Positions 4,822 through 17,453 of a stretch of DNA of 64,000 bases are shown one piece after another. This stretch comes from Flavobacteriales bacterium (GTDB taxonomy: Bacteria; Bacteroidota; Bacteroidia; Flavobacteriales_G; Salibacteraceae). The number at the start of each line of letters is the position of its first letter. Positions within the stretch are counted from its first letter, which is position 1. The stretch spans positions 1 through 64,000 of the forward strand of contig JAGQYO010000001.1 in the NCBI GenBank assembly GCA_020435995.1. The letters are read 5' to 3'. The notes beneath the pieces are model-generated. The model made no database searches, was not told the origin of the DNA, and saw only the letters and a list, made by a program, of their open reading frames with translations. The position numbers were made by a program, and so were the translations under genes.

Positions 4822-5964
4822 CTAGTTTTCTTTTACGGTTACTTGTTGGCCATTTCGCACGCTTCGAGCGCCTTTATCTACCAGCAATTCACCTCCCAAC
4901 AAGCCTTTTTCTATCAGGGCCATTCCTTTGTAATTATTCGACACCGTTATTTCAGTTTTTCTAACCACGCTTATTCCCTCTTCCGAATCAATGGTGTACA
5001 CGTAATCTTGGCCGCCAGCACCTTGCAAAATCATGGCGCTAGGTACTACCACACCAGAATCTTTTGAATAATCTTGAATCTCAAGAAGTGCCACCATGTT
5101 GGGCATTAGCTTGCCGTCTTCGTTGTCCAAATAGGTTTTTATTTTAAAGGTTCTGTTGCCCGGATTAATGAATTGACCCGTTCTTTCAATTCTACTTTTC
5201 TTTTTAATTCCCATGGCTGGAAAGCTGACTTCAACGGCATCTCCCTGCTTCACTCTTCCTAAATAATTCTCTGAAATATCAGCCTTGATATACACGTTTT
5301 TCAAGTTTATCAATCGAACCAAGGGCAGCCCCGGCATTGCCATTTCGCCCTGTTTAGGGTAAACCTCATCAATAACCCCATCGAATGGTGCTTTAATATT
5401 GGCCATCGCGATTTGTGCTTGAATAGTTTCTAAACTATTTTTTAATGCATCGCGGTTGTTTTTGGATTGCAAATACTGCATTTCTGAACCTATTTGTTGG
5501 TCCCAGAGTTTCTTTTGCTTTTGGAAGGTGGTTTCGGCCAACTCCAATCGCGTTTTGATTTCTTGCTCTTGTTCGCGAAGTACACTTGCGTCAACGGTAA
5601 TTAATGACTGCCCTTTTGAAACCTTATCACCTTCCTTTACATTTATTGACGTGATTTTTCCACCCGTTTCAGAAAATAATTGAGCATTCTGATCGGTTTC
5701 AACTGTTCCATAAACCTCAAAATAGTGTTTGAAATCGGCCCTCTGGACCTGATAGCCCGTTACCAACGACAAAGATTTAGAAGTGTCGAGGGCTGCAATC
5801 TGTGATTCAATTGCTGCAATTTCAGCAGATAAATTATCCTTAGATAATTTAAGAGAATCTCGCCTGTTTTTCAAAGAATCGAGCTCAGTTAAATCTGATG
5901 TTGACGACCCTGAACAAGCAGCAAAAACTCCAGCTATGATTGTTATGATAATTCCGTTTTTCAT
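4822..5964 (-). CDS. Efflux RND transporter periplasmic adaptor subunit (HlyD/AcrA family)
   Basis: This 380-residue membrane fusion protein should bridge the RND pump and the TolC channel. A short signal peptide ends in VFAACS, a likely lipobox, so it is probably a lipoprotein. A coiled coil at residues 25-60 is rich in Leu, Lys and Glu. The lipoyl/barrel-sandwich halves follow, with GGKITSINVKEGDKVSKGQ and later IKAPFDGVIDEVYPKQGE flanking an alpha-hairpin of about 70 residues. Beta-barrel and membrane-proximal domains complete it. It sits 23 bases after the tolC-like gene and 28 bases before the pump, in one operon. Confidence 0.95.
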   Translation of the reverse strand: MKNGIIITIIAGVFAACSGSSTSDLTELDSLKNRRDSLKLSKDNLSAEIAAIESQIAALDTSKSLSLVTGYQVQRADFKHYFEVYGTVETDQNAQLFSETGGKITSINVKEGDKVSKGQSLITVDASVLREQEQEIKTRLELAETTFQKQKKLWDQQIGSEMQYLQSKNNRDALKNSLETIQAQIAMANIKAPFDGVIDEVYPKQGEMAMPGLPLVRLINLKNVYIKADISENYLGRVKQGDAVEVSFPAMGIKKKSRIERTGQFINPGNRTFKIKTYLDNEDGKLMPNMVALLEIQDYSKDSGVVVPSAMILQGAGGQDYVYTIDSEEGISVVRKTEITVSNNYKGMALIEKGLLGGELLVDKGARSVRNGQQVTVKEN

Positions 5965-5987
5965 TATTTCTATTTATTGCGTGTTAT

Positions 5988-7361
5988 TTAGTTTTCGTTG
6001 TATAATCCATTGGCATAGTCAAGCTCGGCTTTGGCATCAATCACCTTCATTATGGCTTGAATGTATTCCAGTTGGCCATTGAGGTATTGGGTTTGAGTTT
6101 GGGTAAGTTCAACGCTGCTCGAAACACCCTCGCTGTATTTTATTTGTGTTTGGGTTTTAATTCTGGTTGTTAATTCTAGGTTTTCAGAGGAGTTTTCAAG
6201 AGAAAACATTGCCGCTTCGTACGAATTTCTTTTGTTTGCCAAATCCAGATACAAACTCTGTTCGGTTTGTTCGAGCAAAAGCTCCGCCTGACTTACCCCA
6301 ACCTTTGCCTGTTGCACTTTGTAGTGACGCTGGCCCCCTTGAAAAATAGGCACATTTAGCTGCACACCAATAATGGCCGTTGGGTACCATTTTCCATTTA
6401 AGCCATCAGGATTAAAGTGGTTGAATTCGGTTCCATTCGAATTTCCCTCATAATTTAAAAAGCCATACAACTTTGGGGCGTATTGATAGTTCTCGTTGCT
6501 CAGCTGTAATTGATTGGATTGTAAATTGACACTTGCTCGTCTATAATCAACATGGCTTTGAATGTCTAACTGGCGAGTTAGGTTTTGCTCCTTGTCCAAA
6601 AATGGAGCTTTAATGGCATCCAAGTTTTCGGTTAATTCAATGTCTTCTTTAATCGGTTTTCCCATCGCAAATTTGAGCATGTCTTTCGATACACGTTTAA
6701 TATTCTCTGTTTGAATGAGAATATTTTGCGTATTCAACAAAAGCACTTTCACCTGATCCAGATCCTTTTCTTCCATAAATCCAGCCTCGTACATGGCTGT
6801 GTTCTGCTCCACAAGTTTTTTTAATTGTGCTTCATTTTCGACTAATAACCTATAATTCTCATCAGCTGAGAGAACCATTCCATAGGCCTTGGTTACATCT
6901 CTTTTTATCTCTGCTACCGTTTTTGCCTGATCGGCATAAGCCAATTCCCGATATACTTTAGAAGCCTTGAGTCCTACTAAATAAGATCCATCAAAAAGCA
7001 GTTGATTCACTGAAATTCCAGCTTTCATGTTGTTGGCAAGGCCAAACTGGAGCGGTATAAATTCATCTGGTGGAGCTGCTGGGTTAAAAGAATTAGCCGG
7101 TGCAATCTGTGTGGGAATCTCCAAAAAGTGATTATATGAAGCCGACCCACTAACCTGCGGTAGACCTATACCTGTAATCTCCTTAACCTTTTGCTCCGAC
7201 TTGGCAACATCCATCATCGCCCCTCGTGTAAAGTAGGAGTGCTCTACCGCATATTCTTGTGCTTCTTTGAGCGAAAACGCCACTTTGCTGCCGCCATCTG
7301 CTTGAGCAAATAGCCCAATAGTAGTAACAACAACTAACGTTGTTATTAAGGTGTTTTTCAT
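5988..7361 (-). CDS. TolC-family outer membrane efflux protein
   Basis: The product has 457 residues, the normal TolC/OEP length, and starts with a signal peptide cut near LFAQADGG. Two outer-membrane efflux repeats of long amphipathic helices are visible, the second including QQAKVGVSQAELLLEQTEQ. Between them is a strand region with GVQLNVPIFQGGQR, a hallmark of the family. It forms the outer-membrane channel for the adaptor and pump encoded downstream. It lies only 7 bases after the regulator gene, so the two are co-transcribed. Confidence 0.95.
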   Translation of the reverse strand: MKNTLITTLVVVTTIGLFAQADGGSKVAFSLKEAQEYAVEHSYFTRGAMMDVAKSEQKVKEITGIGLPQVSGSASYNHFLEIPTQIAPANSFNPAAPPDEFIPLQFGLANNMKAGISVNQLLFDGSYLVGLKASKVYRELAYADQAKTVAEIKRDVTKAYGMVLSADENYRLLVENEAQLKKLVEQNTAMYEAGFMEEKDLDQVKVLLLNTQNILIQTENIKRVSKDMLKFAMGKPIKEDIELTENLDAIKAPFLDKEQNLTRQLDIQSHVDYRRASVNLQSNQLQLSNENYQYAPKLYGFLNYEGNSNGTEFNHFNPDGLNGKWYPTAIIGVQLNVPIFQGGQRHYKVQQAKVGVSQAELLLEQTEQSLYLDLANKRNSYEAAMFSLENSSENLELTTRIKTQTQIKYSEGVSSSVELTQTQTQYLNGQLEYIQAIMKVIDAKAELDYANGLYNEN

Positions 7362-7368
7362 TGTTTAT

Positions 7369-8007
7369 TTAGTTTGATAGTTCTTTTTTCACTTTGTCTT
7401 GAAGGTACTTAACCCCTTTTTCGGATGCCAAACCCCTTATGTGGTACCTAAATATTTCCAAGTAGATATCTGAAAACGAAACCCCCTTGGGAAACAAGTC
7501 TGCATTAAAAAAATCATTTATTCTGGCTAGATACATGCCAGTTAGAACGGGAATATTCAGGTCTTTTCGGTACAAACCCTCTTCAATGCCCCTTCTCATA
7601 TTGTCTTCAACCCAATGTTTAACAACCGTTTTTTTGTATTGGTCGAAAGTCGCCATGGCCTCAGGGTAGTATTTTTCTAAATCGAACATCACCGAGGGAT
7701 GTATGTTTTGCAACTGATCTACAATAACCTTTGAAATCTCAAAATTTTCGTCAATTGCATTCAGGTTTTTTGAAACACAAGCCTCCAACGCACACATTTC
7801 CAGCTGCTGATGATACTCAATACCCTTAATGACAAGGTCATTCTTATCGGTAACATATCGATAAAGCGTTTTTTTAGAAATTCCCATGTGCTTGGCCAAG
7901 TCGTCCATCGTAACACTCCGGATGCCATAGGTCATAAACACCTTTAAGGCCCCCATCAGGATTGTTTCAAACTTCTCGTCCATTTTATTCATGGCGCGAA
8001 TGTACAT
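7369..8007 (-). CDS. TetR/AcrR-family transcriptional regulator
   Basis: The protein has 212 residues with an N-terminal helix-turn-helix: ALKVFMTYGIRSVTMDDLAKHMGISKKTLYRYVTDK carries the usual LYRYV recognition helix (residues 20-55). The C-terminal ligand-binding part is helical and specific to Bacteroidota. It is the first gene of the efflux operon rather than divergent from it, so repression would be autoregulatory. A palindrome at 8023-8050 just upstream is the likely operator. The start could be ATG 8007, 7992 or 7983; the third begins MDEKFETILMGAL as homologues usually do. Confidence 0.92.
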   Translation of the reverse strand: MYIRAMNKMDEKFETILMGALKVFMTYGIRSVTMDDLAKHMGISKKTLYRYVTDKNDLVIKGIEYHQQLEMCALEACVSKNLNAIDENFEISKVIVDQLQNIHPSVMFDLEKYYPEAMATFDQYKKTVVKHWVEDNMRRGIEEGLYRKDLNIPVLTGMYLARINDFFNADLFPKGVSFSDIYLEIFRYHIRGLASEKGVKYLQDKVKKELSN

Positions 8008-8022
8008 CCAGATTGCTACTTT

Positions 8023-8050
8023 GGAAACGTTTTGAGCGTTAAATGTTTCC
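8023..8050. promoter_or_regulatory. Candidate TetR operator (28-bp inverted repeat)
   Basis: GGAAACGTTT (8023-8032) and AAATGTTTCC (8041-8050) form 10-base arms with one mismatch around an 8-base spacer. The repeat sits 15 bases upstream of the first tetR start and about 56 bases before the asnS promoter. Size and place fit a TetR dimer or pair of dimers; binding is inferred. Confidence 0.6.
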
Positions 8051-8105
8051 TTAGTGTTGTATTGGTGACAATATTTATATCCAAATAATTGGCTGAAACA
8101 AAGAG

Positions 8106-8135
8106 TTGGCGGAGCATTTCAAAGAATTACCTTTG
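8106..8135 (+). promoter_or_regulatory. asnS promoter (Bacteroidota type)
   Basis: TTG at 8106-8108 and TACCTTTG at 8128-8135 are 19 bases apart, matching the primary sigma consensus TTG-N17-23-TAnnTTTG. The ATG of asnS is 30 bases downstream at 8166. This puts the apparent in-frame upstream TTG start inside the promoter. Confidence 0.75.
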
Positions 8136-8165
8136 CCGCTTCAAATTTTGAGCAGATTCGATAAA

Positions 8166-9599
8166 ATGAAAAATAAGACGATAAAAGACACGCTGTTAAA
8201 TCCCTCAATTGGATTTGACATCACCATAAAAGGATGGGTACGAACCTTTAGGAGCAACCGCTTTATTGCTCTCAATGATGGTTCAACCATTAAAAACATT
8301 CAGTGTGTTATTGATTTGAACCAATGGGACGAAAAATTACTGAAAAGAATTACCACTGGGGCTTGTATCTCAGTTTCTGGCAAACTAACTGAAAGCCTTG
8401 GTGCAGGTCAGTCAGTAGAGCTTATGGTGACTGAGCTAGAAATATTGGGAGATTCTAATCCCGAAGAATTCCCTATTCAGCCAAAAAAACACAGTTTAGA
8501 GTTCCTTCGAGAAAATGCTCACTTGAGATTCAGAACCAATACATTTAGTGCTGTGTTTAGGGTTCGCCATGCCGTTTCTTTCGCCATACACAAATACTTT
8601 AATGACCGCGGCTACTTTTATTTGCACGCCCCCATCATCACCGGCTCGGATGCCGAAGGTGCTGGAGAAATGTTTAGGGTAACTACCCTAAACGACATCA
8701 AACCACCCCTCAACGATCAGGGACATGTAAATTACAAAGAGGATTTTTTTGGAAAAGAAACGAACCTCACAGTTAGCGGTCAACTAGAAGCAGAATTGGC
8801 CGCCATGGCTCTTTCTAAGGTCTACACATTTGGCCCTACTTTTAGGGCAGAAAATTCCAATACATCTCGCCACCTTGCCGAGTTTTGGATGATTGAACCC
8901 GAGGTAGCCTTCAATGATTTGGTGGCCAACATGGATTTAGCAGAAGATTTTCTTAAATATGTGATAAAACACGTGATGGATAACTGTGCCGATGACCTCG
9001 AGTTTTTGGAAAACAGAATTATCGACGAAGAAAAAAATATAAAAGCTGAGCTCAAGCAGCCATTTCCACTGCGCGAAAAATTGAAACATGTATTGGACAA
9101 TAGCTTTGAACGCGTTTCATATACCGATGCTATTACCATCTTGCGCAATTCTAAACCCAATAAAAAGAAAAAGTTCGACTACCTGATCGATGAGTGGGGT
9201 GTTGACTTACAAAGCGAACACGAAAGATATTTGGTCGAGAAGCACTTTGGAAAACCTGTAATCCTCTATGATTATCCCGCGGATATTAAGGCTTTTTATA
9301 TGCGCCAAAATGATGATAACAAGACCGTGGCCGCTATGGACATTCTGTTTCCAGGGATTGGAGAGATTGTAGGTGGATCGCAAAGAGAAGAGCGCTACGA
9401 TGTTCTGGTTTCAAAAATGAAGGCATTTAATATCCCTGAAGATGAGATGTGGTGGTATTTAGATACCCGAAAATTTGGTACTTGTATTCACGCAGGTTTT
9501 GGTCTTGGCTTCGAACGATTGGTTCTTTTTATTACAGGTATGACCAATGTTCGCGATGTTATTCCATTTCCTAGAACCCCGAAAAATGCTGAGTTTTAA
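8166..9599 (+). CDS. asnS: Asparagine--tRNA ligase
   Basis: This cytoplasmic class IIb synthetase charges tRNA-Asn with asparagine. An N-terminal OB fold (residues 15-105: [19 protein letters not shown]) is followed by the class II core. Motif 2 is seen in [20 protein letters not shown] and motif 3 in [17 protein letters not shown] near the C-terminus. The length (478) is normal for the family. ATG 8166 is chosen over the in-frame TTG at 8106 because the promoter overlaps that TTG and residues before [10 protein letters not shown] are not family-like. The efflux regulator is divergent; rpoN follows after 176 bases. Confidence 0.97.
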
Positions 9600-9731
9600 T
9601 TGGAAGCACTTTTCAATTATGAGTGCTGAATGAGCTCGCTACCCTCGGTGCATGAGTATTCAAAAGCATAAAAAACATCAAACACGCTGCATCCCGCAAT
9701 TTTATGAGGTTTTATTCACTTGGCATGTAAG

Positions 9732-9758
9732 TTGACAACGAGAGTTTTTTTATATTGC
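9732..9758 (+). promoter_or_regulatory. Possible rpoN promoter
   Basis: TTGAC at 9732 and TATATTGC at 9751-9758 are 16 bases apart. The -7 box departs from TAnnTTTG and the spacing is slightly short. The start codon is 17 bases downstream. Confidence 0.35.
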
Positions 9759-9775
9759 TCACGTAATTCTATACA

Positions 9776-11233
9776 ATGGCCCTGAGACAACAATTATCAC
9801 AGAAACTACTTCAAAAGCTATCTCCTCAGCAAATACAGCTGATGAAATTACTTCAAATTCCTACCGTTGCCATTGAGCAACGTGTGAAAGAGGAATTAGA
9901 AAGTAACCCCGCGCTTGAAGAAGGAAGAGATTCCGAAGAAGAGGAGTTCAACAACGAAGAAGAATCGTTTTCTGATGTAGAGAGTGAAAAATCAGAAGCC
10001 GAAAAGGAGTTTGATTTTTCAGATTACATGGACGACGAACCTAGCTACAAATACAACGCAAAAAATTATAGCCCCGACGACGAAAAAAAAACCATGCCTT
10101 ATGCCTCTGGCACCAGTTTTATTCAACGTCTTGAAGAGCAACTCGATATGCAAGATTTGGAGGGAGATGATTACCTCATTGCCGACCATATCATTGGGTC
10201 ACTCGATGACTCAGGATATTTGAGTAGAGATATCGATTCCTTAGTTGACGATCTTGCCTTTACCCAAAACATCAATACCGACCCCCAAAAAATCAGATCA
10301 ATTCTTACCGTAATTCAATCATTTGATCCTCCTGGAATTGGTGCCCAAGATTTGCAAGAGTGCCTTTACCTTCAATTAGCTCGCAAAGAAGAAAAAACCG
10401 TAAGTATAGTTACCGCTTTGGCCATCATTCGAGACTATTTTGAAGCATACTCTAAAAAGCATTATCAAAAAATATTAGAAGGATTAGAAATAGATGAACT
10501 GGCCCTAAAAGAAGCAGATGCAGAAATTAAAAAGCTAAATCCAAAACCGGGAGGATCCTCTTCTGAAGGTAGTGCGAGCGAGATCGTTATCCCAGATTTT
10601 ATGCTGGAAATTGAAGATGGAGAGTTCAATATTACCCTGAATGGCCGAAATGCCCCTGACCTAAAAATAAGCAGACAATTTGCCGCACTTATCGAAGATT
10701 ATCAAAAGAGTAAGTCGAAACCTAGTAAACAACAGAGGGAGGCCCTTGCATTTGTAAAGCAAAAGCTGGATTCGGCTAAATGGTTTATTGATGCCATAGT
10801 ACAACGACAAAACACACTCTTGAATACTATGAACTCCATTGCTGACTACCAACGGGAATACTTTATGACTGGAGACGAAACTAAGCTGCGCCCCATGATT
10901 TTGAAAGATATTGCCGATATTATCCACATGGATATTTCTACGGTTTCGAGAGTAGCCAACAGTAAGTATATCCAAACACCTTATGGCACTTTTCTTTTAA
11001 AAACCTTCTTTTCAGAATCACTCACCAATACCGAAGGAGAGGAAGTGAGTACGAGGGAAGTGAAAAAAATATTAGAAACTGCAATAGGTGCAGAAAACAA
11101 AAAAAAGCCATTGACAGATCAACGGTTGATGGAATTGCTAAAGGAAAAGGGATATAACATAGCCCGAAGAACCGTGGCAAAATACCGCGAACAACTCAAT
11201 ATTCCCGTAGCTCGACTCCGTAAAGAGATTTAA
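9776..11233 (+). CDS. rpoN: RNA polymerase sigma-54 factor
   Basis: The 485-residue alternative sigma factor binds -24/-12 promoters and needs enhancer-binding ATPases. Region I is Gln/Leu-rich at the start (LRQQLSQKLLQKLSPQQ), followed by an acidic region II (residues 45-110). The core-binding domain starts near IQRLEEQLDMQ. The C-terminal DNA-binding domain contains the diagnostic RpoN box ARRTVAKYRE near residue 465. It follows asnS and precedes a membrane protein by 4 bases. I recall asnS-rpoN adjacency from other Bacteroidota. Confidence 0.97.
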   Translation: MALRQQLSQKLLQKLSPQQIQLMKLLQIPTVAIEQRVKEELESNPALEEGRDSEEEEFNNEEESFSDVESEKSEAEKEFDFSDYMDDEPSYKYNAKNYSPDDEKKTMPYASGTSFIQRLEEQLDMQDLEGDDYLIADHIIGSLDDSGYLSRDIDSLVDDLAFTQNINTDPQKIRSILTVIQSFDPPGIGAQDLQECLYLQLARKEEKTVSIVTALAIIRDYFEAYSKKHYQKILEGLEIDELALKEADAEIKKLNPKPGGSSSEGSASEIVIPDFMLEIEDGEFNITLNGRNAPDLKISRQFAALIEDYQKSKSKPSKQQREALAFVKQKLDSAKWFIDAIVQRQNTLLNTMNSIADYQREYFMTGDETKLRPMILKDIADIIHMDISTVSRVANSKYIQTPYGTFLLKTFFSESLTNTEGEEVSTREVKKILETAIGAENKKKPLTDQRLMELLKEKGYNIARRTVAKYREQLNIPVARLRKEI

Positions 11234-11237
11234 GCAA

Positions 11238-11852
11238 GTGATTCGAATAGCTCAAATTCTCTCCTACCTACTGCATCCATCTCTTATGCCTACCATGGCA
11301 TTGATGCTCGTACTTAGTATCGACTCATACCTTGCCTATTCAATTAACAAGCAGTATAAGTGGTTTTTATACACCTTGGTTTTTGTGAATACCTTTATTT
11401 TTCCGGTCATCATCACGCTAGTGATGTATCAACGAAAAATTATCTCATCATTACAATTAAAGAAACGAAGTGAGCGTATTTATCCGTTTGGCTTTGCAGT
11501 TGGGTTCTATTTTTTCACTTATTTTTTGCTTAAAAAAACAGCTATTCCACAAGTGCTTTTATCAATAATATTGGGATCAACACTTACGCTTTTGGCCGTC
11601 TTTTTAATTACGTTCAAATACAAAATATCAGCCCACATGGCAGCAATTACAGGATTGTTAGGTGCCTTATTGGCCATTTTTATCACCTTTCAGGCCAATT
11701 ACTCCAACGCGATTCTACTCATTGCTTTAATTTGGGGTTTTTTGGCCAGTGCCCGTCTAAAATTAAAAGCACATTCTCATTCAGAAATATATGGTGGATC
11801 GCTGGTTGGGGGAATATTGGTTTTTATGTCTGTCTTTTTTTCTTGGGGTTAA
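11238..11852 (+). CDS. PAP2-like multi-pass membrane protein
   Basis: A 204-residue protein with about six hydrophobic helices, starting at GTG 11238, 4 bases after rpoN. The segment KISAHMAAITG and the later ARLKLKAHSHSEIYGGSLVGG resemble the SGH and SRxxxxxHxxxD phosphatase motifs of PAP2 lipid phosphatases. The first lacks the Gly and the second has Ala for Ser. It may be a degenerate lipid phosphatase or a catalytically different relative. It lies in the inner membrane and is probably co-transcribed with rpoN. Its stop overlaps the convergent regulator by 4 bases. Confidence 0.75.
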   Translation: MIRIAQILSYLLHPSLMPTMALMLVLSIDSYLAYSINKQYKWFLYTLVFVNTFIFPVIITLVMYQRKIISSLQLKKRSERIYPFGFAVGFYFFTYFLLKKTAIPQVLLSIILGSTLTLLAVFLITFKYKISAHMAAITGLLGALLAIFITFQANYSNAILLIALIWGFLASARLKLKAHSHSEIYGGSLVGGILVFMSVFFSWG

Positions 11853-12340
11853 GAAATAAGTTGCTGCCGCAGCAAAAATTCTAATTGAGAATTTATTCTG
11901 GCCAATTTTTCAGTGAGCCTTTTGTTACTTTCTCTGAGCCTGAAAGTCTCAATAGCATTGTTCAGCGTAATTTTTAATTCCTCCTCATGCCAGGGTTTGT
12001 TCAAATAGCGATAAATTTCGCCTTTGTTCACGCCTTCTATTACTGCATTAATATCGGCATACCCAGTAAGTAGTATGCGAATTGCGGCTGGCTCTGCAGT
12101 TTTCACCTTCGAAAAAAACTCTATTCCTGTCATCACCGGCATTCTTTGATCGGAAACAATTACCTCAAATGGCTCTTTTAATTCTTCAAATAAATCAAAG
12201 GCAGCTTGAGCGCTGATGGCTGTGTACACCCTGTAATCTCGTCTAAAGGCAGCTTTAAATGCCGTTAGGTTATGTTCCTCATCATCTATATATAATATCA
12301 AGGCCTTTTCAGGAAATCCTTCTATGTTATTGGAGCTCAT
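11849..12340 (-). CDS. Single-domain response regulator (HupR/RpfG-type receiver)
   Basis: The 163 residues are almost only a receiver domain. The acidic pair Asp19/Asp20 sits in LYIDDEE, the phosphorylated Asp64 in IVSDQRMP, Thr in LLTGYAD and the conserved Lys in NKPW. A short helical tail with a coiled-coil look follows (RESNKRLTEKLARINSQLEFLL). There is no output domain, so it probably acts by protein contact. The receiver is clearly paralogous to the N-terminus of the protein at 16323-17453, which suggests that both take part in the signalling of the divergent operon starting at 12460. Confidence 0.92.
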   Translation of the reverse strand: MSSNNIEGFPEKALILYIDDEEHNLTAFKAAFRRDYRVYTAISAQAAFDLFEELKEPFEVIVSDQRMPVMTGIEFFSKVKTAEPAAIRILLTGYADINAVIEGVNKGEIYRYLNKPWHEEELKITLNNAIETFRLRESNKRLTEKLARINSQLEFLLRQQLIS

Positions 12341-12384
12341 AATTCATCGATTAGAAAGTTGAAATTTAAAAAGATTTCGTCAAA

Positions 12385-12417
12385 TTGTGCTACACTATGG
12401 TTCTTCAATTAAATTTG
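12385..12417 (+). promoter_or_regulatory. Candidate promoter of the signalling operon
   Basis: TTG at 12385-12387 and TAAATTTG at 12410-12417 are separated by 22 bases, within the Bacteroidota range. The GTG start of the E1-like gene is 42 bases downstream. Confidence 0.55.
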
Positions 12418-12459
12418 GAGTAATTTGAGGGCAAGTAGAATTCCATTTATTATACACAG

Positions 12460-13470
12460 GTGAGCAATAATTTTATTCCAGAATTAATTCGTGATTCGGA
12501 AGATGGCGCGGAGCGCTTGTCTGAATTAAAAGAATTAGGCGCTACTATCACTGATTTAACAGAAAGCCAAATTAACGAGTTGAAAAAAATTCGTCTAGGA
12601 GCTGAGGTAACAAATGAATTGCGAGTCTGTTACGTATTCTATCCTTGGCTCAATGCCGCTTACAAAATATTAGAGGAAAAGGGGTTTATTGAGGTTCGCA
12701 CGGGTCGCAACCGTTATAAAATCACCTTGGAAGAACAAGAATTACTTGCCACAAAAAAAATTGGCATTGTTGGCCTATCAGTGGGCCGAACTATTGCTAC
12801 TACTTTAGCCGCAGAAAGAAGCTGTGGAGAGCTGCGAGTTGCAGACTTCGATATTCTAGAATTGAGCAATTTAAATAGGATTAAAGCGCCACTTCACCAT
12901 ATCGGAATGCTTAAAGCGGTATCACTTGCTCGGGAAATTAAAGAGTTTGACCCTTATTTTAATATTCACTGTTTTGATGATGGCATCACACCCGACAACA
13001 TTGACTCATTCTTTTTGGACGGCGGAAAATTGGATATACTTGTAGATGAATGCGACAGTTTGGAAGTAAAAATTAAACTACGGAAAAAAGCTAGAGAACT
13101 CGGTATTCCAGTAATTATGGACACAAGTGACCGCGGCCTAGTTGACATAGAGAGATTTGATCTTGAACCCAACCGTCCGTTCTTCCACGGAAAAATCGGG
13201 GATTTTAATCCCCCCTCAGATTGGAAAATTACCGATCAAGAAAGACAAGAACTATTTTTAAAAATAATTGATTTAGAAAAGGTTTCTGAAAGAGGAAAGT
13301 ATTCACTTTTCGAAATAGGAAAAACCATATCGACGTGGCCCCAACTTTCAAGTGATGTAGTGACGGGTGGAGGTGTATCTGCACAAATATGTAGAAAAAT
13401 ACTTTTGGGAAATAATGCACCTTCGGGTCGCTATTATTTTGACGTGGATAGCTGGTTGAACGATGGATAG
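12460..13470 (+). CDS. E1/ThiF-like adenylyltransferase (Rv1355c-like family)
   Basis: A 336-residue protein with an N-terminal helical part (1-95) and an E1-like Rossmann domain. The nucleotide loop is IGIVGLSVGR (101-110), followed by VADFDILELSNLNR (127-140), Lys152 in the IGMLK helix, and VDECDS (195-200). These are the ATP-contacting positions of MoeB/ThiF/E1 enzymes, which adenylate a carboxyl end. No CxxC zinc pairs and no obvious thioester Cys are seen. It starts at GTG 12460; its 3' end overlaps the acyltransferase gene by 8 bases. No ubiquitin-like, E2 or CD-NTase partner is nearby. Substrate unknown; a small-molecule carboxylate is my inference. Confidence 0.8.
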   Translation: MSNNFIPELIRDSEDGAERLSELKELGATITDLTESQINELKKIRLGAEVTNELRVCYVFYPWLNAAYKILEEKGFIEVRTGRNRYKITLEEQELLATKKIGIVGLSVGRTIATTLAAERSCGELRVADFDILELSNLNRIKAPLHHIGMLKAVSLAREIKEFDPYFNIHCFDDGITPDNIDSFFLDGGKLDILVDECDSLEVKIKLRKKARELGIPVIMDTSDRGLVDIERFDLEPNRPFFHGKIGDFNPPSDWKITDQERQELFLKIIDLEKVSERGKYSLFEIGKTISTWPQLSSDVVTGGGVSAQICRKILLGNNAPSGRYYFDVDSWLNDG

Positions 13471-14200
13471 TAGCACAAAAAATTATGTTAGATTGAAGGC
13501 ATTTAGAGCTATAGATCGTCCCGATTTATGTGATAAATTTATTGAGGGTCACAGCAGGGTACTTTCTAGCGTGGGTGTCGAAAAAGTTACATCGAATACC
13601 AACGAATGGACTCAAAATCCTGCATCTTTTGTTGTGCTTTGTGAATCACAAGACGGCGAAAAAACTTATGGCGGAGCTCGAGTTCATGCCTACGGCGGCA
13701 GCCAAGTACTTCCCATAGAAGAAGCGACCTTGGAAATGGACCCAACCATAGTGGACCACGTCAAGCGCTTTGCACCCCAGGGCACGGGTGAGCTTTGTGG
13801 CCTATGGAATTCAATTGAAGTAGCTGGTATGGGAATTGGCGCAGTTTATCTGATTAGATGTGCTATAGCCATTCTCACTCAATTGGGATTGGGAACTTGT
13901 TGGGCCTTATGCTCGCCTTTTTCGGCCCGAATTGCAAAAAACTATGGGTTTCTTAAATATCCTGATGTTGGAAATGACGGTACGTTCTACTACCCTAAAA
14001 TTGATTTGCTCGCCACAGCATGTTTGGTTGAAGATTCATCCAAATTAGAGTTTGGGAACCCAGATGAAGTACAAAGAATTCAAGATCTTCGAAAAAACCC
14101 CATTCAAAAACTAGATGAAACCAACCGTGGCCGAACCATGAATGTGGAGTATAATTTACTCATTGAAAATGTTGACAAGTCTCTTTTTAAATGGTCATGA
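13463..14200 (+). CDS. GNAT-like acyltransferase
   Basis: The 245-residue protein has features of the GNAT / N-acyl amino acid synthase fold. A central strand GGARVHAYGG is followed by LPIEEA, then GELCGLWNSIEVAGMGIGAVYLI at the acyl-CoA loop position, and FSARIAKNYGFLKYP as the C-terminal GNAT helix-strand. Autoinducer and N-acyl amino acid synthases show a similar order; the precise family is uncertain. The ATG overlaps the end of the E1-like gene by 8 bases, and its TGA overlaps the sensor kinase start (ATGA), so translation of the three is coupled. It probably transfers an acyl group to an amine. Confidence 0.65.
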   Translation: MDSSTKNYVRLKAFRAIDRPDLCDKFIEGHSRVLSSVGVEKVTSNTNEWTQNPASFVVLCESQDGEKTYGGARVHAYGGSQVLPIEEATLEMDPTIVDHVKRFAPQGTGELCGLWNSIEVAGMGIGAVYLIRCAIAILTQLGLGTCWALCSPFSARIAKNYGFLKYPDVGNDGTFYYPKIDLLATACLVEDSSKLEFGNPDEVQRIQDLRKNPIQKLDETNRGRTMNVEYNLLIENVDKSLFKWS

Positions 14201-16323
14201 AATTATTTAAAATATGCACTGCATTTTTCTTAGTTGTACTATCAAGTGTTTGCTTCTCACAGCAAATTGACTTTACCGGAAAGAAAATTAACTACCCTGG
14301 TGAAAAAATGCTTTGGCTTAAGGACCCTTCATCCAGCCTTAATCCGGAACAAGCTCTAGCATCAACTAATTATGAATCAAATTACAGTAAGGTGCTAAAC
14401 CTCGGGGTATCTAAAAATACCAATTGGGTGAAATTTGAGCTTGCCAACCAAACAACAGAAGAACTCTTTATTCATGTTTCATATCCAGTTCTGGATCATA
14501 TTTGTATCTACTACTTTGAAAAAGGCCATTTAATCGACTCCAGTTTTTCTGGGTTTCAATATCCTTTTTCGCAAAGAGAAATAGATTACCAGGATTTTAT
14601 TTTTTCCGTTCCTCAGGCAAGTGGGCCAATTAGTGTTTTGGTTCAGCTCCAAAATCATAGCCAATCTATGCTTCCGCTTTCCATTGGCACCAAAGATCAG
14701 ATCAATTCAAGCCTTTATAAAAAGGATCTCTTTTTTGGGGTTTATGCTGGGTTTATTCTCGTTATGTTGTTATACAACTTGTTTATTTTCTTATCCACAA
14801 AAGATAAAAACTACGCGTGGTATCTCATATATATATTCTCAGTTGGGATTACACAATTTACTCTTTCAGGCTATAGCCTTAAATACCTGTGGCCCGACCT
14901 CCCTTGGCTTTCAAAAAACAGTGTCTATTTGTGTGGTATTGGCTCAGGGCTTGCCGTTGTGTTTTTCGTAAAAATGTTTCTTCAAGTAAAAGAGAACTTA
15001 CCGTGGTTCAACAGACTGCTTAATGGCTTTGTTGTTTCATACCTCGTTGCGCTGCTGCTAGTATTGATAGGGTTACCCACCCTCAGTTATAACCTCATCA
15101 ATCTAACTGCAGGTTTAGGAGTTATAGTTCTTTTGATAGCCGCATCTATCATAGCTAGGCAGGGGTTTCGCCCCGCCCAATACTTCGTGGTTGCATGGAC
15201 CATTTTTATTTTTTCCATCATTATTTTCGTGCTAAAAGACGCGGGTGTTTTACCCTACAATGATTTTACAATCTATGCCTTGCCCATTGGGTCTGCACTA
15301 GAAGTTGTGCTGCTTTCGCTAGCCCTAGCCGATAAAATAAATTCACTAATAATTGAAAAAGACCTTGCTCGAGCCAATGAGCTTGAAGCCGTAAAAGAAA
15401 ATGAAAAACTGGTGCTGGAGCAGAATATAATGCTCGAACGCAAAGTGACCGAGCGAACCGCTGCATTGGAAAATGCTAATAGCAACTTGGAGGTCGCTAT
15501 GGGTAACTTAAAAGATGCGCAAGCCCAATTAGTCAACCAAGAGAAAATGGCATCATTGGGTCAGTTAACAGCGGGCATTGCCCATGAAATTAATAATCCC
15601 ATCAATTTCGTTTCATCAAATGTAAATCCTCTTCGACGCGATATTGATGATTTAATTCAAATTATAGAAAAATATAAGGGTGTTGAGGAACTCGAGAATA
15701 TCGAAAAAACCATACAAGAAGTCAATGATTTTAAAAATGAAATTGGTTACGACTACGTACTTAAAGAAGTTGATGAATTATTAAAAGGAATAGGCGATGG
15801 CGCGTCCCGTACAGCAGAAATTGTTCAGAGCCTTAAAAACTTTAGTCGCTTAGATGAAGTAGATTCTAAGTTTGCAGATATACACGAAGGGATAGACTCC
15901 ACGCTTGTTATAATCATAAGCGGCACCAAATACAATGTGAACATTATAAAGAATTATGACACAACCATAACCCCGATTGAGTGCTACCCAGGCAAACTCA
16001 ACCAAGTGATTTCTAATATTGTAGTGAACGCAATTCAAGCGATGAATAGTACGACGGAAAACCCAACTTTAACATTGACTACCAAAAATTTAGACCAACA
16101 TATTTCCCTGAGCATTAAGGACAACGGATCGGGAATTCCAGAAGAAGTAAAGAATAAAATTTTCGAACCTTTTTTTACCACTAAAGAAGTGGGAGAGGGA
16201 ACAGGGCTTGGCCTTTCTATTGTATTTTCTATTATTGAGCTTCACAAAGGTCAAATAGAAGTAAATTCGGAGCCTGGGTTGGGAACGGAGTTTTTAATCA
16301 CTCTACCCAAAGCCTTGAATTAA
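14191..16323 (+). CDS. 7TMR-DISM sensor histidine kinase
   Basis: A 710-residue membrane sensor with a signal peptide (FFLVVLSSVCFSQQ) and a periplasmic 7TMR-DISM extracellular domain (about 30-170). Seven transmembrane helices (180-390) and a coiled coil (395-455) follow. The kinase core has the phosphorylated His465 in GIAHEINNP, the N box VVNAIQAMN, G1 DNGSGIPEE, F box FEPFFTTK and G2 GEGTGLGLSIV. Its DISM domain could bind a ligand such as a carbohydrate or small metabolite. A second ATG at 14197 forms an ATGA overlap with the preceding stop and may be the real start. The next gene begins in a TAATG overlap. Confidence 0.93.
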   Translation: MVMKLFKICTAFFLVVLSSVCFSQQIDFTGKKINYPGEKMLWLKDPSSSLNPEQALASTNYESNYSKVLNLGVSKNTNWVKFELANQTTEELFIHVSYPVLDHICIYYFEKGHLIDSSFSGFQYPFSQREIDYQDFIFSVPQASGPISVLVQLQNHSQSMLPLSIGTKDQINSSLYKKDLFFGVYAGFILVMLLYNLFIFLSTKDKNYAWYLIYIFSVGITQFTLSGYSLKYLWPDLPWLSKNSVYLCGIGSGLAVVFFVKMFLQVKENLPWFNRLLNGFVVSYLVALLLVLIGLPTLSYNLINLTAGLGVIVLLIAASIIARQGFRPAQYFVVAWTIFIFSIIIFVLKDAGVLPYNDFTIYALPIGSALEVVLLSLALADKINSLIIEKDLARANELEAVKENEKLVLEQNIMLERKVTERTAALENANSNLEVAMGNLKDAQAQLVNQEKMASLGQLTAGIAHEINNPINFVSSNVNPLRRDIDDLIQIIEKYKGVEELENIEKTIQEVNDFKNEIGYDYVLKEVDELLKGIGDGASRTAEIVQSLKNFSRLDEVDSKFADIHEGIDSTLVIIISGTKYNVNIIKNYDTTITPIECYPGKLNQVISNIVVNAIQAMNSTTENPTLTLTTKNLDQHISLSIKDNGSGIPEEVKNKIFEPFFTTKEVGEGTGLGLSIVFSIIELHKGQIEVNSEPGLGTEFLITLPKALN

Positions 16324-17453
16324 TGAAGTTGGACTCAAACAATAATGAAGGAAGGATTCTTTATCTAGATGATAAAGAAAACAACCTGCTTTCGTTTAAA
16401 GCCTCATTCAGAAGAGAGTATCGCATATTTATTTCTTCCAGCCCGCATGAAGCTTTTGACCTGATTGAAAAAAACCAAATTCAAATTGTTGTAGCGGATT
16501 TCAAAATGCCAGAAATATCGGGTGTTACTTTTTTAGAAGAAGTGAAAAAACGTTTTCCCGAAACCATCCGCATCATGCTTACCGGACACGCAGATTTACC
16601 TGCCGTTGTAGAATCTATAAATCGAAGCGAAATATTCAGGTTTTTGGCCAAACCTTGGAAGGAAGAAGAACTTCGAACCGCTTTCAACGCGGGGCTAAAC
16701 TTGTACCATACTCGAAAAGAACTACACTCAAAAAATGAGGAGCTTAAAAAAGCTTATGTAGAGTTGGACCGCTTGGTTTATAGTACAGCTCATGATATAA
16801 CCAGCCCGTTATCCAATATTCTTGGATTAGTTAGCTTGATTAGAATGGACGGACTGAAGGATGGCGAATACCTCGATTTGATTGAAACTACAACTAAAAA
16901 ATTACAGTTTCTAGCCCGCGACGTTCTCAATTTTCATAGGAACAAACGTACGGTGGTAGAACCTAAAAAATTGGACCTAAAACTGCTTGTAGAAAAAACA
17001 CTAAAGGACTTCGAACATTTTGAAAACGCCTCAAATGTTACTTTCAGCTTGAGCATCAATCAAAAGGGTGAGTTTTACTCCGATAAGATTCGATGGCGGA
17101 TCATTTTGAGCAACCTTATCTCTAATGCAATTAAATACCAAGACGAGACTAAAGCCAACAGAAATGTATCTATTCTCTTAAATTCTGATGACGAAAAAGC
17201 AGAACTTATCATACAAGACAATGGAGTAGGGATTCCGCAATCACTTCAACCCAGAATCTTTGATTTGTATTATCGGGCAAGTAAAATGAGTACAGGGTCG
17301 GGCATTGGTCTATACATTGTTTCGGAAGCGGTTTCATTATTGGGTGGCAACATAAGGGTAGAATCGGTTGAGAAAGAAGGAGCAAGTTTTTACCTTTCAA
17401 TTCCAAACAAACATCTGGGAAACGGGGATTCAGCAAAATTGCCAATAGACTAA
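16323..17453 (+). CDS. Response regulator-histidine kinase hybrid
   Basis: The 376-residue cytoplasmic protein begins with a receiver (Asp59 in VVADFKMP, Thr in MLTGHAD, Lys in AKPW). A helical linker leads to a HisKA box with His157 in TAHDITSPLSN and an ATPase domain (NLISNAIKYQ, DNGVGIP, GSGIGLYIV). The order receiver-then-kinase suggests that it accepts phosphate from the 7TM kinase and then passes it on, perhaps to the lone receiver at 11849-12340. The start codon overlaps the preceding stop by one base. Confidence 0.92.
   Translation: MKLDSNNNEGRILYLDDKENNLLSFKASFRREYRIFISSSPHEAFDLIEKNQIQIVVADFKMPEISGVTFLEEVKKRFPETIRIMLTGHADLPAVVESINRSEIFRFLAKPWKEEELRTAFNAGLNLYHTRKELHSKNEELKKAYVELDRLVYSTAHDITSPLSNILGLVSLIRMDGLKDGEYLDLIETTTKKLQFLARDVLNFHRNKRTVVEPKKLDLKLLVEKTLKDFEHFENASNVTFSLSINQKGEFYSDKIRWRIILSNLISNAIKYQDETKANRNVSILLNSDDEKAELIIQDNGVGIPQSLQPRIFDLYYRASKMSTGSGIGLYIVSEAVSLLGGNIRVESVEKEGASFYLSIPNKHLGNGDSAKLPID

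Follow-up and report, generated by a model that had tools for sequence, protein, structure and literature searches.

The window analysed here is a 64,000-nucleotide stretch of a Flavobacteriales genome of the family Salibacteraceae (assembly GCA_020435995.1, contig JAGQYO010000001.1, positions 1 to 64,000), in which a compact gene cassette appears to encode both the synthesis of an acylated small molecule and a sensor for it. An initial annotation, made from the sequence alone, had described four overlapping plus-strand genes at this locus. Our reading of the open-reading frames reproduced their positions and overlaps, which are 8, 10 and 1 base in length, the middle one shrinking to 4 with a start at the second ATG (14197). 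A receiver gene at 11849–12340, absent from that annotation, is a fifth member of the cassette and lies divergently upstream or convergently downstream in nearly all cassettes. The features of the locus are as follows:

11849..12340, minus strand: stand-alone response regulator, a receiver with a short C-terminal tail (Pfam Response_reg, 8.9e-17)
12341..12459, no strand: divergent intergenic region, presumed site of both promoters (sequence read)
12460..13470, plus strand: ThiF/E1-like cyclase, corresponding to the cyclase half of TrzS/Rv1355c (336 aa, GTG start)
13463..14200, plus strand: acyltransferase with a predicted N-acyl-amino-acid-synthase/LuxI-like fold (245 aa; AlphaFold2 (AF2) model and Foldseek)
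14191..16323, plus strand: 7TMR-DISM sensor histidine kinase, putative receptor (710 aa; Pfam domains)
14260..15336, plus strand: receptor input region (periplasmic DISMED2 plus seven-transmembrane (7TM) part), the part swapped in relatives (AF2, Foldseek and co-swapping)
15268..15360, plus strand: counterpart of the downstream swap boundary of relatives (receptor residues about 360–390, end of the 7TM)
16323..17453, plus strand: receiver-histidine kinase, conserved output half of the cassette (376 aa; Pfam domains)

The intergenic region at 12341–12459 gave no match to the Bacteroidota promoter consensus TTTG-N17-21-TAnnTTTG, and an Rfam search gave no match.

Predicted enzymes and sensing proteins of the cassette

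The product of the first plus-strand gene matched Pfam ThiF (1.1e-19) and the NCBIfam model of the Rv1355c family, NF005901 (1.1e-125), the latter at model positions 19–340 of 722 only; because just the first half of the model is covered, the score of 420.6 bits falls below the cut-off of 476. The protein is 44–47% identical to actinobacterial Rv1355c proteins (275 columns) and keeps the ATP-site residues G102, G105, D131, N139, R140, K152 and D199, in line with the glycine loop, SNLNR motif (136–140) and K152 reported in the initial annotation, and the motif residues are invariant or nearly so across ten aligned cassette cyclases. D199 is the conserved ThiF aspartate, its equivalence to Asp217 of TrzS being assumed, as the M. 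smegmatis TrzS was not in the comparison. From these sequence features, the protein is predicted to cyclise N-acyl amino acids in an ATP-dependent manner. A contig search with the window cyclase as a single sequence gave no match, whilst an alignment-based query did. Identification as a ubiquitin-like or CBASS (cyclic-oligonucleotide-based antiphage signalling system)-type E1 enzyme was rejected: the neighbours include no ubiquitin-like, E2 or protease partner, as had been observed before, and the Rv1355c match far exceeds the PADLOC E1-E2 scores, which are weak and cover the shared ThiF core.

The flavin oxidase (FDO) half of the Rv1355c family is missing, as the window protein stops after the cyclase, and a search of the window's own genome, which is 98.9% complete, turned up three short nitroreductases but no FDO-type protein. 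Since the oxidase is lacking, we infer an N-acyl amino acid, or its saturated oxazolone, as the product. Cyclases without an FDO half, that of the window among them, group in a supported clade with 23 members, besides a few others, which suggests that this form arose early and has been stable; two loci scored as FDO-less in that analysis (L091 and L111) have the length of a fusion, whereas the 154-locus set used for the chemotypes below classifies by length.

The acyltransferase (ACT) of the window had no sequence match in Pfam, NCBIfam or the PDB. Its AF2 model (pLDDT 88.7, pTM 0.88) was best matched by Foldseek to FeeM (2g0b, 1e-7) and then to the CoA-dependent N-acyl-homoserine lactone (AHL) synthases MesI, RpaI and BjaI, with TM-scores on the target of 0.67–0.76 and sequence identities of about 11–15%. 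The predicted structure thus agrees with the GNAT/N-acyl-synthase-like identity proposed at the outset and, as regards an acyl-CoA site, the fold is that of the acyl-CoA-using FeeM and of CoA-dependent AHL synthases. Comparisons (hhalign) of the ACT with a TrzA-like protein and with a Streptomyces GNAT partner were not significant. In Mycobacterium tuberculosis, Rv1356c (TrzA) forms an N-acyl amino acid from acyl-CoA (PMC12856293), and the earlier proposal that the enzyme pair adenylates a carboxyl group and acylates an amine fits this published TrzA/TrzS chemistry; given the TrzS homology and the FeeM/AHL-synthase fold, that proposal appears well founded.

The Pfam domains of the two kinases agree with the identities first assigned to them. 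The sensor kinase carries 7TMR-DISM_7TM (8.4e-51), 7TMR-DISMED2 (2.5e-24) and HATPase_c (1.4e-26) domains plus HisKA, and the receiver-kinase carries Response_reg (4.8e-17), HisKA (1e-7) and HATPase_c (6.5e-23). The receptor input was modelled with a pLDDT of 93.4 (AF2) and matched the RetS periplasmic domain (3jyb/2xbz) in Foldseek; the receptor model also weakly resembles 7TM lipid-carrying proteins such as Wntless, to which we give little weight. A LuxR-type receptor is absent, the sensing parts of the cassette being the 7TMR-DISM kinase and the receivers only. At one Arachidicoccus locus (L104, 11203–13300), the receptor kinase gene is broken into two reading frames of 551 and 162 aa, which may reflect a natural loss.

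Conservation of the cassette in Bacteroidota

Among 297 Bacteroidota genomes sampled evenly, 13 had an ACT match and 11 a cyclase, and the ACT, 7TM kinase and receiver-kinase adjoined the cyclase in all 11 of the latter. Nearly all of the best 80 named cyclase loci likewise held the receiver, cyclase, ACT, 7TM kinase and receiver-kinase, some being cut by contig ends; the exceptions were Brevibacillus, Cohnella and one Blastocatellia metagenome-assembled genome. When neighbours were clustered at 92 loci, the cyclase family was present at 90, the kinase/receiver group at 87 and the ACT at 85, with any other neighbour family at 15 loci at most and mostly restricted to single genus groups. The synthesis enzymes, grouped with the kinases into one island in the initial annotation, are thus not found apart from them across this neighbourhood survey. 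We found no description of a Bacteroidota cassette of this kind in the open-access literature, to which the search was limited, so that this statement is provisional.

By type, 94 of 154 loci encode a cyclase-FDO fusion, 48 a cyclase only and 12 no cyclase. The TrzS-like cyclase-FDO fusion in the cassettes of many relatives ties the cassette to a characterised pathway. Cyclase-less cassettes come from three families (L023, L231, L232, L241, L247, L250, L270-L272, L274, L278 and L281) and presumably make an N-acyl amino acid only; in five of their genomes that were checked, no Rv1355c-type cyclase was found elsewhere, only generic ThiF scores.

Rv1355c-type proteins were also seen in other gene surroundings. 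On a Streptomyces plasmid (L125, 4830–6628), the gene of an FDO-less cyclase overlaps that of a true GNAT (PF13302), without kinases. In Brevibacillus (L046, L077 and L085), FDO-less cyclases occur without this ACT family or the cassette kinases and adjoin a protein of 280–350 aa, upstream of topoisomerase-like genes. On a Rhodococcus plasmid (L123, 2808–7010), an Rv1355c fusion lies beside a 252-aa hypothetical protein (TrzA-like by position) and a GGDEF protein, which suggests that a cyclic di-GMP link recurs on a plasmid.

Co-swapping of synthesis genes and receptor input

The Algoriphagus group (genus g16, 54 species; the genus labels of g16 and of g19 below are inferred from matches to named records) holds the cassette at a single locus between conserved flanks, and 53 of its 54 good genomes have exactly one copy. 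Between its 46 species with a fused cyclase and its eight FDO-less species, sequences diverge from the cyclase through the ACT to about residue 370 of the receptor, whilst the kinase part of the receptor, the receiver-kinase and the receiver show no such divergence. Distance matrices within the 46 fused species correlated strongly between the ACT and the 7TM part (r = 0.90) or sensor part (0.91) of the receptor, yet at only 0.13 between the 7TM part and the kinase of the same protein, and the correlation profile along the operon was stepwise: 0.23 at the FDO end, 0.87 at the start of the ACT, 0.98 in the 7TM part and 0.12 in the kinase. Five allele groups, defined from these same data, are clades on both the ACT and the receptor-input trees, at a cost of four changes each, the minimum, whereas they cost 20 changes on the tree of kinase plus receiver-kinase and 19 on the tree of flanks, receiver, kinase and receiver-kinase. 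No mismatch of ACT and receptor alleles was seen in the 54 species, and the receiver-kinase tracks the species tree in relatives.

The same exchange is visible between sister species. For example, L192 and L205 share 95–99% DNA identity in the receiver and cyclase-FDO, about 45–57% across the ACT and receptor input, then 89–99% again; the pairs L024/L210 and L199/L215 resemble them, whilst sisters with the same allele do not show the pattern. In one sister pair, DNA identity is 96–99% upstream of the exchanged block, about 50% within it and about 97% immediately after it. As a control, we took another 7TMR-DISM hybrid kinase from 11 of the same genomes, in which input and output correlated at 0.75 and the link to the cassette ACT was −0.02; for the cassette receptor in those 11 genomes, the corresponding values were 0.19 and 0.90.

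Coupling extends to other genera, with the partner of the receptor input differing by gene order. Dyadobacter (eight loci, gene order as in Algoriphagus) gave a correlation of the 7TM part of 0.93 with the ACT vs. 0.53 with the kinase. In g19 the order is ACT, cyclase-FDO, receptor, and here the receptor input co-varies with the FDO half (0.92–0.96), less with the C-terminal part of the cyclase, and is not coupled to the ACT (0.2) or to its own kinase (0.31), the correlation with the 7TM part dropping from 0.97 to 0.62 to 0.24 at the boundary. This pairing with the FDO half agrees with the tyz pathway, where the preferences of cyclase and oxidase appear to determine the product (PMC10404671).

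Across all 154 loci we scored three chemotype states: no cyclase, cyclase and cyclase-FDO. Mapped onto trees, these states cost 9–10 changes for the receptor input, compared with 21 for the ACT, 26–27 for the receiver-kinase and 27 for the kinase domain that sits in the same proteins as that input; small bootstraps of the counts (six each) did not overlap. The cyclase-less state, found in three families, cost two changes on the receptor-input tree (where a single clade is not rejected, approximately unbiased (AU) p 0.74) vs. seven on the kinase tree. In the window itself, the receptor input is closest to cyclase-type receptors, whilst the kinase is closest to cyclase-less cassettes of the same family.

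Another locus of the window's family (L234, genome G391) was also informative: at about 5442–10155, a complete ACT is followed by a remnant (98 aa) of a cyclase, then by an intact cyclase, a degenerate ACT of 145 aa and the receptor, an arrangement that resembles a scar left when modules were exchanged. Upstream of the cassette, both the window (8106–11852) and L234 (10802–12877) carry rpoN-like and small-membrane-protein genes, which suggests an insertion site common to the family; in the window, an asparaginyl-tRNA-synthetase-like gene precedes both.

A make-and-sense reading, its rivals and known systems

A variable receptor input on a conserved kinase, co-inherited with a synthesis gene, is a pherotype signature and points to a small molecule that is both made and sensed. 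The initial annotation had left the choice between such a signal and a modification reporting to the sensor; the co-swapping of synthesis gene and receptor input favours the former, in which the product would bind the sensor. We consider it probable that the cassette both makes and senses its own signal, as a self-contained system with several communication groups. The ACT would transfer an acyl group from acyl-CoA (or acyl carrier protein) onto the amine of an amino acid, and the ThiF-like cyclase would adenylate the carboxyl group and close the N-acyl amino acid into an oxazolone; in many relatives the fused flavin oxidase would add a desaturation, and some relatives would dispense with both cyclisation and oxidation. 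The periplasmic/7TM half of the sensor kinase would recognise the product once it has left the cell, with the signal relayed to the receiver-kinase and stand-alone receiver, which may act on a further target. Relatives would trade a synthesis module and the receptor input that matches it but keep the kinase and receivers, hence the several communication groups. Exchange of this kind is the way in which dialects arise in bacterial communication. We also lean towards a broader view, that these cassettes constitute a new class of chemical communication in Bacteroidota, with N-acyl amino acids or acyl-oxazolones as autoinducers, dedicated 7TMR-DISM receptor kinases, and pherotypes exchangeable both by ACT or oxidase allele and by entire tailoring steps (no tailoring, cyclisation, or cyclisation plus desaturation).

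Several observations weigh against this interpretation. Neither receiver has a DNA-binding domain, the cassette holds no DNA-binding output, and no exporter was identified. At the depth of the phylum, the partial correlation of ACT and 7TM part is weak (r 0.08, p 0.09). Loci L037 and L039 are 92% identical in the kinase and 89% in the ACT, yet their receptor inputs share only 23–38%, which indicates a receptor swap without an ACT swap. When only loci ordered cyclase, ACT, receptor are considered, the receptor and ACT trees fit the chemotype about equally, and without Algoriphagus no tree differs in fit. Finally, the swapped synthesis module always adjoins the receptor gene (the ACT in Algoriphagus and Dyadobacter, the oxidase in g19) and the divergence between alleles makes recombination within the block difficult, so that hitch-hiking is possible.

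Hitch-hiking is central to the alternative in which the receptor senses an outside cue (host, competitor or nutrient) and induces an acyl-oxazolone that acts elsewhere, diversifying selection falling on the receptor alone and carrying the adjacent synthesis gene along. The adjacency of the co-varying gene and the L037/L039 swap speak for it, as does the DNA identity of about 50% between alleles, which hinders internal recombination. We nonetheless regard it as unlikely, since zero mismatches of ACT and receptor occurred in the 54 species despite 19–20 switches, the cyclase-less state costs two changes on the receptor input vs. seven on the adjacent ACT, and the receptor input follows the tailoring chemistry across families. 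In a second alternative, the product would be an antagonistic compound that the receptor detects as a cue or for self-protection, amounting to a weapon with matched sensing instead of cooperative signalling. Matched swapping is also typical of toxin-immunity pairs. N-acyl tyrosine derivatives of Stieleria have moreover been reported as antimicrobial (PMC12856293). This alternative is distinctly improbable, however, as the partner is a conserved kinase pathway and not an immunity protein or exporter, and as exactly one copy is kept in nearly every good Algoriphagus-group genome. That the E1-like enzyme and ACT instead modify a protein or membrane component, which the sensor reads, is barely credible: E1-like enzymes often act on protein C-termini and weak matches to PADLOC bacterial E1-E2 models exist, but by far the closest family is Rv1355c/TrzS, an oxazolone synthase, the neighbours include no ubiquitin-like, E2 or protease partner, and cyclase-less cassettes retain the same kinases.

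The physiological role of bacterial oxazolones has been named a major open question (PMC12856293), and the cassette links an oxazolone pathway to a dedicated receptor kinase. Natural allele swaps make the question directly testable, because near-identical sisters differ almost only in the synthesis gene and receptor input. If the make-and-sense reading is true, a communication system with dialects would be added to environmental Bacteroidota, and a ligand class to the 7TMR-DISM kinases.

TrzAS (Rv1356c-Rv1355c) and the other oxazolone pathways TyzACB and OxzAB (PMC10404671) resemble the cassette in placing an acyltransferase beside a ThiF cyclase of the same family, and many Bacteroidota relatives share the ThiF-flavin oxidase fusion. 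The window differs in having no oxidase and in coupling the pathway to three signalling proteins (7TMR-DISM kinase, receiver-kinase and receiver), and no family relationship was recognisable between the sequences of its ACT and of the TrzA-like protein that was compared. FeeM and the AHL synthases BjaI, RpaI and MesI are alike in modelled fold to the window ACT, but their sequence identity to it is low (about 11–15%), and the window cassette has no LuxR-type receptor. CqsA-CqsS and LqsA-LqsS are small-molecule autoinducer systems that likewise set a synthase beside a membrane sensor kinase, whilst the chemistry of the synthase, which makes alpha-hydroxyketones, and the receptor type are different.

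Parallels in architecture also exist among peptide systems, and agr of staphylococci shows the same pherotype signature as ComQXPA. In ComQXPA of Bacillus subtilis, a variable receptor input sits on a conserved kinase and is inherited along with the synthesis gene, giving pherotypes (PMC4008528). ComQXPA-like systems include a DNA-binding response regulator in the locus, unlike the window cassette, and their signals are peptides, whereas the cassette would use an acylated amino acid or oxazolone with a 7TMR-DISM receptor, in Bacteroidota. ComQXPA, agr and the cassette nevertheless have in common synthesis gene(s), a receptor kinase and a response regulator in one locus, a variable N-terminal membrane domain in the receptor, and a division into distinct groups.

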